Positions 1,772 to 7,878 of a stretch of DNA of 33,899 nucleotides are shown here, piece by piece; the stretch's first letter is position 1, and every line of letters starts with the position of its first letter. Source of the stretch: a virus; the IMG/VR virus record IMGVR_UViG_3300042525_000085, positions 1-33,899 of that record; one strand, written 5' to 3'. A program made the position numbers and the translations under genes. Below the pieces are notes generated by a model, which was not told the DNA's origin, searched no databases, and saw nothing but the letters and a program-made list of their open reading frames with translations.

Positions 1772-2116
1772 ATGAAAATAACGGAACATCAGGAACAAGT
1801 AATGCTTATTACATGGTTTAGGCTGCAATACCCAAAATATATCATTTTTGCTATACCTAATGGTGGTGCTAGACATATAGTCACGGCAGTAAAGTTAAAA
1901 GCAGAGGGAGTATTGGCTGGCGTACCAGACTTATTCTTAATGGCTGCTAAAGGTGAATGGCACGGTATGTTTATAGAGATGAAGGCCAAGACAGGCAATG
2001 TGTCAGATAAACAGAAAGAATTTATGGCTGCCGCTAACGCCATGAACTATAAGACTATAGTTTGCTATGGATTTGATGACGCTAAAACGTCAATAATAAA
2101 TTACTTGCAAGAATAA
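1772..2116 (+). CDS. VRR-NUC domain nuclease
   Basis: 114 residues, nearly all one VRR-NUC (PD-(D/E)xK superfamily) fold. Visible motifs are AIPNGG at 27-32, the helix KLKAEGVLAG, then GVPDLF with catalytic-type Asp53, and FIEMKAK with Glu69 and Lys71. This is the full catalytic set and the usual length for stand-alone phage members. Such nucleases act on branched or flapped DNA. It is the first gene of the rightward unit, before the replication genes, which suits a role in replication or recombination. The start has no clear Shine-Dalgarno in its AT-rich leader. Confidence 0.88.
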   Translation: MKITEHQEQVMLITWFRLQYPKYIIFAIPNGGARHIVTAVKLKAEGVLAGVPDLFLMAAKGEWHGMFIEMKAKTGNVSDKQKEFMAAANAMNYKTIVCYGFDDAKTSIINYLQE

Positions 2117-2134
2117 TTTAGTTAGTTTAAAGTA

Positions 2135-2246
2135 TCACCATCACTTGGCGGTGAACAACTAGTAAGCCTTAGTCAACACTCTGCTGGTACTAGCCAGTCC
2201 GCCAACGCCCTTAAAAAAGGCGAGAGTGTTGTCTAGGGCTTTTTTT
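2135..2246 (+). ncRNA. Structured leader RNA with pseudoknot potential and terminal T-run
   Basis: An 18-base helix (2165-2182 with 2223-2240, one T-T mismatch and one G-T pair) closes a junction holding two hairpins: CTGG/CCAG (2184-2187 and 2194-2197) and CGCC/GGCG (2206-2209 and 2219-2222). Upstream, hairpin TCACC/GGTGA (2135-2139, 2150-2154) exposes loop bases TTGGC, which can pair with GCCAA at 2201-2205. Seven T's end the structure at 2240-2246, and the Shine-Dalgarno of the initiator gene (GGAG, 2249-2252) follows at once. It could be an attenuator, an antitermination element or a small RNA. No known family recognised. Confidence 0.65.
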
Positions 2247-2259
2247 ATGGAGTAAACAA

Positions 2260-2928
2260 ATGAAACTAATGCCTAAAAATTGGGAAAAATTCCAGCACTA
2301 TAAACACCGCAGCCCACCTTGGATTAAATTGCATCGTGATATTTTAGATGATTTTGATTGGTGGTCATTACCTATTGCTAGCAGGGCGATAGCACCATGT
2401 CTTTGGTTGCTAGCATCATGTGAAGAAGATGGTGAGTTTGATGCAACACCAGAAAAGTTAGCTTTTAGATTTAGAATGACTGAAAAAGAAATACAATTAG
2501 CTATTAAGCCATTGATAGAAAAAGGATATTTTGTTAGTGCTAGTGACACGCTAGCAGAGTGCTATCAAGATGCTACGTCAGAGAAGAGTAAGAGTAAGAG
2601 AAAGAGTAAAGAAGATACAGAGGAGATATTTATTCCTCCAATTGATTCTAAGTTATTAAATGAATGGATATCTGTTCGTAAAAAGAAAAATGCTGTAGAT
2701 ATTACAGAGTTAGTTTGGAAAGGATTATTACGTGAAGCAGGTAAACTTAATTGGACACCAGAACAAGCTGTTGTATATTGCTGTGAAAAAGGATGGGTTA
2801 GTTTAGATGCTAGTTGGGTTAAGGACAGACCAAACAAACCAATGAAAGGTTATGGTTTTGTATCTGACGCACAATTTAATGATTGGCTAGAGTCCACACC
2901 TACACAAGAAAGGATTGCAAATGAATGA
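2260..2928 (+). CDS. Phage replication initiator-like protein (lambda O-type position)
   Basis: 222 residues. The N-terminal region (about 15-85) has the look of a phage replisome-organiser winged helix: PPWIKLHRDILDDFDW, then a helical stretch ending RFRMTEKEIQLAIKPLIEKGYF. A Lys/Ser/Glu-rich linker (108-125) leads to a C-terminal module (about 130-205) rich in Trp. GGAG lies seven bases before the ATG. The next gene overlaps by 8 bases and looks like a helicase loader, so the pair fits an O/P-type initiator and loader cassette. The upstream structured RNA could control its expression. Known O-type proteins bind origin iterons; I saw no convincing iterons within the gene. Confidence 0.6.
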   Translation: MKLMPKNWEKFQHYKHRSPPWIKLHRDILDDFDWWSLPIASRAIAPCLWLLASCEEDGEFDATPEKLAFRFRMTEKEIQLAIKPLIEKGYFVSASDTLAECYQDATSEKSKSKRKSKEDTEEIFIPPIDSKLLNEWISVRKKKNAVDITELVWKGLLREAGKLNWTPEQAVVYCCEKGWVSLDASWVKDRPNKPMKGYGFVSDAQFNDWLESTPTQERIANE

Positions 2929-3929: not shown

Positions 3930-4097
3930 ATGACGCACACAGAGTTAAAAGAACTACGCAGCAAAACAGGTTTATCACAAAAAGAGTTTGGAGTTAAGTT
4001 GTTTAAGACTAGGGATAGCATTGCTAAATACGAGTCTGGCAAGTTTACGATTCCTGCTTACATGGATATTTTAGTTAAGGCTGTGTTTAGTGACTAA
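3930..4097 (+). CDS. Small XRE/Cro-type helix-turn-helix regulator
   Basis: 55 residues, almost exactly one HTH_3 domain: ELKELRSKTGLSQKEFGVKL forms helices 1-2, and the recognition region includes TRDSIAKYESGK, a standard XRE signature. There is no extra oligomerisation or protease domain, so it is more like Cro than CI. It has its own good promoter with a dyad in the spacer. It may govern the divergent early region or its own operon. The genome shows no integrase, so a lysogeny switch is not implied. Confidence 0.8.
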   Translation: MTHTELKELRSKTGLSQKEFGVKLFKTRDSIAKYESGKFTIPAYMDILVKAVFSD

Positions 4098-4109
4098 AAT
4101 TAATAATTT

Positions 4110-4673
4110 ATGATTTTATTTCCAAACAAAAAATATGATGTAATTTATGCAGACCCACCTTGGTCTTATTATAACGATTCTGATGCAAATGTTAATTGCA
4201 CTACTGTAAAAGGAATGAGAAGACCACCTTACTCAGTAATGTCTTCTAAAAGCATAAAATTATTGCCTGTTAAAAATATAGCAAAAGAAAATGCAATTTT
4301 ATTGATTTGGACAACAGATTATCATTTGGAAAAATGTATAGAAGTAATAAATGCTTGGGGATTTACATATAAAACTGTAGGATTTTGTTGGTCAAAAAGA
4401 AATAAAAACAACACTCCAGTTACTTTTATGGGGGCTTATACCATGAAAAGTGGAGTTGAATTATGTTTGTTGGCAACAAAAGGTAAAAATGCTAGAAAAT
4501 TATTAAAAAAACACAATGTTCGTGCTTATATTGAAAGCGAAAGACAGCATCATTCTAAAAAACCTGATGAAATTAGAAATAGAATCAATGAATTATTTGG
4601 TGATGTTTCTAAAATAGAATTATTTGCTAGAAATAAATATGAAAATTGGGATTCGTGGGGAAATGAAATTTAA
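4110..4673 (+). CDS. MT-A70 family adenine methyltransferase
   Basis: 187 residues. Residues 9-18 read YDVIYADPPW, the DPPW catalytic motif at Asp15-Trp18. Further family features are ILLIWTTDYHLEKC (about 65-78), WGFTYKT, and the C-terminal IELFARNKYENWDSWGNE. Phage members methylate adenine N6 in DNA, often without a partner nuclease, probably for protection from host restriction. The gene is clearly more AT-rich than the virion genes and its ATG lacks an obvious Shine-Dalgarno, which suggests recent capture. The target sequence cannot be told from the protein. Confidence 0.9.
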   Translation: MILFPNKKYDVIYADPPWSYYNDSDANVNCTTVKGMRRPPYSVMSSKSIKLLPVKNIAKENAILLIWTTDYHLEKCIEVINAWGFTYKTVGFCWSKRNKNNTPVTFMGAYTMKSGVELCLLATKGKNARKLLKKHNVRAYIESERQHHSKKPDEIRNRINELFGDVSKIELFARNKYENWDSWGNEI

Positions 4674-7125: not shown

Positions 7126-7878
7126 ATGATTGATTTAAGATTAGGTGATTGCTTAGAAGTAATGAAGGCTATACCTAATGGAAGCATAGATGCAATTATT
7201 GCAGACCCACCATACGGCACTACTGCTTGCAAATGGGATAGCGTTATACCTTTTGAGCCTATGTGGGCAGAGTTAAAGCGCATTATTAAACCAAATGGTG
7301 CAATTGTTTTGTTTGGTCAAGAGCCATTTAGCAGCGCTTTGCGTATGAGTAACATCAAGAATTATAAATATGATTGGGTATGGGATAAAAAAATACCAAG
7401 CGGAATGAGTTATGCAAGGTATCAACCAATGCGTCAGCATGAATGTATTCTTGTATTTTGTGCAGGTAAAACTATTTATAATGCACAAGTTACATTAAGA
7501 GATAAGCCAATTAAAAAAGGTGGAAATAAATTTAGCGAAACAGCGCCTATTGCAGCTTGTAAAAATAATGTTACTTTTAAAAAAATTTATACAACAAAAC
7601 AACCAACATCAATCATACAGTTTGATAAAATAAGAAAAGGTAGCGTACATCCTACACAAAAGCCAGTAGCATTGCTTGAATACTTAATTAAAACTTACAC
7701 TCAAGAAAACGAAACTGTATTAGATTTTACAATGGGAAGCGGAACAACTGGCGTTGCTTGTAAAAATCTTAATCGCAATTTTATAGGCATTGAGTTAGAT
7801 GAAAACTATTTTAATATAGCAAAAGCACGTATTGGTGATATATTGACGCAAAGTAAAGGATATGATATAGTCACGTAA
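7126..7878 (+). CDS. Site-specific DNA methyltransferase (N4/N6, DPPY type)
   Basis: 250 residues, beta-class order: catalytic motif ADPPYG at residues 26-31 first, S-adenosylmethionine-binding motif FTMGSGTTGVACKNLNRNF around residue 200 last. Between them lie the expected FGQEPFSS and HPTQKPVALLEYLI blocks. These enzymes methylate the amino group of adenine or cytosine in a short DNA site. No restriction gene is adjacent, so it is an orphan, probably protective or regulatory. AGGA lies five bases before the ATG. It is AT-rich like the MT-A70 gene. Confidence 0.92.
   Translation: MIDLRLGDCLEVMKAIPNGSIDAIIADPPYGTTACKWDSVIPFEPMWAELKRIIKPNGAIVLFGQEPFSSALRMSNIKNYKYDWVWDKKIPSGMSYARYQPMRQHECILVFCAGKTIYNAQVTLRDKPIKKGGNKFSETAPIAACKNNVTFKKIYTTKQPTSIIQFDKIRKGSVHPTQKPVALLEYLIKTYTQENETVLDFTMGSGTTGVACKNLNRNFIGIELDENYFNIAKARIGDILTQSKGYDIVT

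Follow-up and report, generated by a model that had tools for sequence, protein, structure and literature searches.

A Conserved Pseudoknotted RNA, Probably a Transcription Attenuator, Precedes the Replication Genes of Freshwater Phages

Introduction

Phages must time the replication of their DNA and, to our knowledge, little has been learned about how this is controlled in most environmental phages. In satellite phage P4 the leader of the replication operon is silenced by CI/C4 RNA, while riboswitches link a conserved ligand-binding core to genes of one pathway. IsrK, a small RNA that ends at an intrinsic terminator, also has a read-through form that is an mRNA (PMC4825925). The put RNA of HK022 is about 70 nt long and folds into two stem-loops with a triplex (PMC9378689); its action extends to terminators as far as 10 kb away. 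A further point of comparison is int-alpA RNA (RF02996), which Rfam types as an sRNA.

Here we describe an RNA element in the 33,899-base virus record IMGVR_UViG_3300042525_000085, which was analysed whole and is referred to as the window. Portal, scaffold, major capsid and endolysin families were recognized in it, indicating a podovirus-like phage. The best annotated relatives of its capsid came from a freshwater spring source and from a Methylophilales phage, and the nearest relative of its VRR-NUC nuclease among annotated phages was in Methylophilaceae phage P19250A. There was no integrase in 13 related phage records, so that close relatives give no sign of lysogeny. The window also contains a small Cro-like helix-turn-helix gene within the replication operon (3930–4097; PHROG transcription regulators, weak Pfam HTH_19) and two DNA methyltransferase genes (4110–4673 and 7126–7878; MT-A70 family, PHROG DNA methyltransferase).

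Results

Architecture of the RNA Element and Its Flanks

The element sits between the VRR-NUC gene and the replication gene 2260–2928. Its features and those flanking it are as follows (classes A, B and C are groups of homologues described below).

1772–2116: VRR-NUC nuclease gene, upstream of the RNA element
2105–2133, plus strand: putative promoter TTGCAA-N17-TAAAGT, as read from the sequence, overlapping the 3′ end of the VRR-NUC gene
2140–2246, plus strand: whole structured RNA element, 107 nt, scoring 125.4 bits with covariance model R1 (the window is among the sequences from which R1 was built)
2141–2144/2151–2154, plus strand: stem of hairpin H1 (TCAC/GTGA), loop 2145–2150; an A-U to G-C compensatory change
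2145–2150, plus strand: 5′ strand of pseudoknot PK1 (TTGGCG), the six-base H1 loop; partner CGCCAA at 2200–2205
2159–2164, plus strand: 5′ strand of pseudoknot PK2 (CTAGTA), a linker; partner TACTAG at 2188–2193, the complete H2 loop
2165–2182, plus strand: 5′ strand of helix P1 (lower 8 bp, mismatch at 2173, upper 9 bp); partner 2223–2240
2183 and 2198–2199, plus strand: unpaired G and unpaired UC, retained in classes A, B and C
2184–2197, plus strand: hairpin H2, with loop 2188–2193 as the PK2 3′ strand; compensatory changes between classes
2200–2205, plus strand: 3′ strand of PK1 (CGCCAA), with covariation in class A
2206–2222, plus strand: hairpin H3, stem 2206–2209/2219–2222 and an A-rich loop; two-sided changes in three of four pairs
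2223–2240 and 2240–2246, plus strand: 3′ strand of P1 and U tract (seven T's), an intrinsic terminator predicted from sequence
2249–2252 and 2260, plus strand: Shine-Dalgarno GGAG and start codon ATG of the replication gene
2260–2928, plus strand: replication gene (PHROG replication protein, O-like), matching phage replication families

As an initial annotation had proposed, an 18-position helix (P1; 17 bp and one mismatch, 2173/2232) encloses two hairpins, H2 and H3, and is followed by seven T's and the Shine-Dalgarno sequence of the replication gene. Minimum-energy folding of 2135–2246 recovered P1 and the 3′ hairpins at −46.4 kcal/mol, compared with a mean of −26.5 for shuffled sequences (z −5.5; none of 200 shuffles was as good). 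The upstream hairpin can be drawn from 2135 in the window (TCACC/GGTGA), and homologues keep TCAC/GTGA only. The pairing TTGGC/GCCAA suggested in that annotation is backed by compensatory changes and extends to six bases (TTGGCG/CGCCAA, i.e., PK1). Both PK2, which is stronger than PK1, and the promoter were absent from it. PK1 and PK2, each nested with the other, have no bases in common with H1, H2 or P1. With position 2140 numbered as 1, H1 is 2–5/12–15, PK1 6–11/61–66 and PK2 20–25/49–54; P1 is 26–33/94–101, mismatch 34/93 and 35–43/84–92, followed by G44; H2 is 45–48/55–58, then U59 and C60; H3 is 67–70/80–83, and the U tract 101–107.

In the window and in other members, a U run comes directly after a G+C-containing stem, P1, as in an intrinsic terminator; a simple terminator scan omits it, its loop limit being 8. 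On the upstream side, the candidate promoter resembles the sigma-70 type and ends 6 nt before the element. It has 8 of 12 matches and is omitted by a generic scan with a threshold of 9 of 12. The best −10-like hexamer, sought 4–11 nt before the element, ends 5–8 nt before it in 53 of 60 members, and the −35 plus −10 score of members (8.6) is about 13 sd above that of shuffled upstream sequence (6.77, sd 0.14). On the downstream side, a start codon lies 10–17 nt past the element in 52 of 57 members. With a sigma-70-like promoter directly before it and a replication start codon mostly at this short distance after it, the element is predicted to be a complete promoter-RNA-terminator unit, and 2140–2246 is probably the entire putative terminated transcript.

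The Pseudoknots Are Conserved through Extensive Sequence Change

Homologues were collected through relatives of the replication protein, relatives of the nuclease, and DNA patterns. Those of class A have the window's core in common, and in classes B (L057 and L083) and C (L061 and L066) much or most of the sequence of P1, H2 and H3 is replaced, with an identical anatomy. A search with R1, which was built from the nested helices only, yielded further members before other replication genes, giving 63 distinct sequences, 60 of them complete, with one element per phage record. They include a member with a seven-base loop (L013). Two candidates that matched a looser DNA pattern, L015 and L041, were dropped, as the element is absent from them. 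In L131 (288–381), about 12 bases of the P1 5′ strand (AGTCAACACTCT) are missing and both pseudoknots are kept; its terminator stem is largely lost, either as a real variant or as an assembly artefact.

Formal pair counts were restricted to class A (17 sequences), because MAFFT aligned H2 and PK2 wrongly in classes B and C, which were parsed by segments; the sequences are related, so these counts do not represent independent events. In class A, all 204 cells of PK1 and PK2 were paired. Two-sided changes occurred in six of the 12 pseudoknot pairs (two pairs of PK1 and four of the six of PK2) and one-sided changes in none. The covariation score of the pseudoknots was reached by none of 500 shuffles, and sliding the pseudoknot partner by 1–3 columns left only 24%–48% of cells paired. 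For the whole structure in class A, 99.7% of cells were paired, with two-sided change at 12 pairs. Over classes A–C, the upper and lower parts of P1 were paired in 205 of 205 and 184 of 184 cells, respectively.

The first 41 elements contained 19 distinct PK2 linker/loop alleles (stems fixed), 18 of them fully paired, whereas cross-combining their linkers and loops gave full pairing in only 31 of 338 cases. The lengths of the H2 loop and of PK2 vary together (5, 6, 7 or 8 nt). Among the 60 complete elements, PK2 was full in 59, and PK1 had six of six pairs in 51 and five of six in nine, totals that lean toward the structure because pseudoknot pairing was one of the criteria for picking the hairpin from the candidates. 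For classes B and C the parsing used complementarity to find PK1, a circular procedure, so that the class A alignment provides the independent test of PK1. Compensatory changes, whose absence the initial annotation had named beforehand as refuting its fold, are present. The variety of alleles makes the structure near-certain despite the kinship of the sequences, and we consider the element's structure and its conservation to be all but certain.

Nascent and Full-Length RNA Favor Different Folds

When the window RNA was cut at 66 nt, ahead of the 3′ strand of P1, the nested energy of PK1 plus PK2 (−17.9 kcal/mol) was about 5.6 kcal/mol better than that of H1 plus H2 (−12.3), whereas in the full-length RNA the terminator fold (−42.8) was 12 kcal/mol better than PK1 plus PK2 (−30.8); ViennaRNA cannot score pseudoknots, and these differences carry model error. 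Minimum-energy folding of the nascent RNA produced the PK1 helix in 49 of 60 members. A preference that reverses in this way follows the logic of an attenuator in which the terminator is held back by an earlier fold. Yet the sets of bases do not overlap, and the pseudoknots could coexist with the terminator as a compact fold instead of competing with it. The exact match between H2 loop length and PK2 length (5–8 nt) suggests that H2 and PK2 are present at the same time. In a straight P1 of 18 positions, the base appears to be out of reach of H2 plus PK2 (about 10 bp), so that PK2 and a complete lower P1 would coexist only if P1 bends, perhaps at the conserved mismatch.

Downstream Genes and Hosts

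The downstream proteins that we tested differed in their N-terminal families and were DnaD-like helicase loaders and primosomal or O-like replication proteins. Several have an O-like C-terminal part in common, through which autoregulation may occur; for those of L017 and L019 that family gave no match. A GIY-YIG-like or other small gene separates the element from the replication gene in a few members. In L061, L066 and L282 the intervening gene, a GIY-YIG-like endonuclease as judged by eye, appears to have been inserted.

Among bacterial genomes, the element was found in one of 186 in the genus, two of 399 in the order and one of 398 in the phylum, one and the same Polynucleobacter genome being counted in all three samples. 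This rarity marks it as a phage feature. In Polynucleobacter sp. UK-Kesae-W10 the element precedes a replication gene whose start codon is 76 nt beyond it; there is a repressor-like gene nearby and an integrase-family match about 17 kb off, and the location is a probable prophage.

Comparison with Known RNA Families

No family in Rfam 15 matched the element at gathering or permissive thresholds, BLASTN of the leader against 50,697 phage records gave no match, and we found no description of this RNA in the open-licence literature. The conserved pseudoknotted leader thus remains unassigned in Rfam, as the initial annotation had it; it is a new RNA family of a known general kind, the regulated phage leader. 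Freshwater-2 RNA (RF02980) reached at best 17.4 bits (E 1.7), against a gathering score of 49.9 bits.

One close likeness in anatomy is to int-alpA RNA, although it gave no match in the window at its gathering score (35.8 bits), nor around the element at E values up to 10. It occupies the corresponding site, just upstream of replication genes of the same families, has a closing helix around two hairpins followed by a U-rich stretch, and its second-hairpin loop can pair with a distant strand. However, that strand is downstream, whereas in the window element it is upstream.

The Rfam covariance models of isrK (RF01394), C4 (RF01695) and c4-a1b1 (RF03163) had no match in the window at gathering scores; in P4, used as a positive control, isrK and C4 were recovered and c4-a1b1 fell just under its gathering score. 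Like IsrK and the P4 leader, the element is a structured RNA heading a phage operon, but there was no covariance match either way, and no complementary antisense stretch longer than 11 bases turned up in the window. With HK022 put it shares the character of an early phage leader RNA controlling termination, which in the window element is a prediction.

Riboswitch-type attenuators are 5′ leaders that switch between folds at an intrinsic terminator, and the element would resemble them if its predicted folds do alternate. It differs in having no large conserved unpaired core, only G2183 and UC2198–2199 being conserved and unpaired across classes A–C, and in that the genes downstream are replication initiators of several families. 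Of the suggestion that the leader is an attenuator sensing a ligand or phage protein, the sensing is conjectural, with only three strongly conserved unpaired positions and varied genes downstream, whereas the attenuator fits the promoter-element-terminator-ribosome-binding site anatomy. A released small RNA of about 110 nt, also suggested, would be compatible with that anatomy as well.

Other Leaders at the Same Site

A similar promoter is found in phage P19250A where the nuclease gene ends, before the replication gene, but this phage lacks the element. Further relatives have other structured leaders at this position, some with a terminator. The site therefore looks like a regulatory slot.

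One such group ("class D": L012, 2078–2175, and also L067, L068, L135 and L215) shows complementarity between the loop of a long 5′ hairpin and that of the terminator hairpin, with three covarying alleles (GGTCAAG/CTTGACC, GGACAAG/CTTGTCC and GGACTAG/CTAGTCC). Another ("class E") occurs in L071 and L102 just past the nuclease gene, and in L212. Pairing is possible there between the loop TTGATAA and TTATCA of a hairpin further downstream. The ribosome-binding site seems to be covered by the 3′ stem, with which a short reading frame overlaps; these leaders had no Rfam match.

In a third group, int-alpA RNA lies directly before phage replication genes, in L278 (1403–1477), L264 (1403–1481) and L153 (1403–1484), which score at or above gathering; other leaders (e.g., L230, L233 and L256) score below it. 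In 22 of 25 leaders, the second hairpin and a strand located downstream of the closing helix were complementary over 6–7 bases, compared with 111 of 596 cross-combinations, which suggests that int-alpA RNA contains a pseudoknot.

Discussion

The reading that we favor, with somewhat better than even confidence, is that the element is a transcription attenuator of phage replication genes under pseudoknot control. Between the U tract and the ribosome-binding site there is no room for a promoter, so that the replication gene would have to be transcribed by read-through of the terminator. Transcription would start at or within a few bases of H1, making the nascent RNA the element itself, and the first two thirds of the RNA would fold into PK1 and PK2, with the 5′ strand of the terminator stem held in the loop closed by PK2. 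As the 3′ strand (2223–2240) emerges, P1 would form beside the U tract, RNA polymerase would stop, and an RNA of about 107 nt would be released. If P1 were delayed, or its lower half blocked by PK2, polymerase would instead read through to the ribosome-binding site and replication protein would be made. The balance might be tipped by the speed of RNA polymerase, NusA, a phage or host protein, an RNA or a ligand. We infer that the promoter and terminator function, and that the pseudoknotted state promotes read-through and sets the timing or dose of replication; the element thus probably decides the amount of replication protein made. It is likely that a complete terminated transcript is produced. 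A second role in trans, like that of IsrK (PMC4825925), is conceivable for the released RNA, although we think it rather unlikely that it has a function of its own.

The same predicted anatomy suits a stand-alone small RNA gene, its placement before replication genes being incidental. According to this explanation, to which we give about one chance in four, the product is a stable RNA of about 107 nt acting in trans, with a read-through RNA that is possibly an mRNA. Promoter-like sequence and a terminator tightly flank the fold, there is a single copy per genome, IsrK offers the precedent of a terminated small RNA whose read-through form serves as mRNA (PMC4825925), and the 76-nt distance to the start codon in the Polynucleobacter genome would fit. 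But most members precede replication genes, which is needless for a free small RNA; the loops are paired internally and change freely, unlike an exposed, conserved antisense seed; and elsewhere in the window there is no complementary stretch of more than 11 bases. The helices have no bases in common and could in principle all form together, and the terminator stem is strong, as expected of a static, pseudoknot-stabilized terminator or 5′ end whose sole job is to insulate the replication genes or protect the RNA, without switching. This is unlikely: a pure insulator, with no promoter room behind its U tract, would silence the replication genes, and keeping two pseudoknots through at least 18 fully paired linker/loop alleles goes beyond what a terminator needs.

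Two further phage systems were considered, and both seem very improbable models. The initial annotation had raised a put-like antiterminator, an RNA that binds RNA polymerase and lets it pass its own and later terminators. The element is a promoter-proximal structured RNA in an early phage operon, and HK022 putL, which works without a protein partner, likewise follows closely on its promoter (PMC9378689). However, the element ends in its own terminator, R1 had no match in the HK022 record from 24000 to 40000, and put is described as two stem-loops with a triplex, with no pseudoknot mentioned (PMC9378689). As slight a chance attaches to the element being the target or source of an antisense immunity RNA as in P4. 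The position is similar, the P4 replication-operon leader holding the Rfam families isrK, C4 and c4-a1b1, and one member lies in the probable Polynucleobacter prophage; but the 13 related phage records lack an integrase, R1 had no match in P4, and the window contains no antisense copy of the element.

Returning to the attenuator, a broader proposal, which we put forward tentatively and hold to be somewhat doubtful, is that the element belongs to a widespread, unlisted class of phage leader whose two nested pseudoknot helices, being the first to form, antiterminate the terminator that surrounds them and gate replication, with the released RNA as a second product and non-homologous leaders filling the same slot elsewhere.

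The element is a single RNA module, conserved in structure and free in sequence, that freshwater phages carry ahead of several different replication initiators; in relatives other structured RNAs replace it. Together these observations point to a general role of leader RNA in controlling phage replication. Swaps between the many natural alleles of the module offer a direct test of the pseudoknots.
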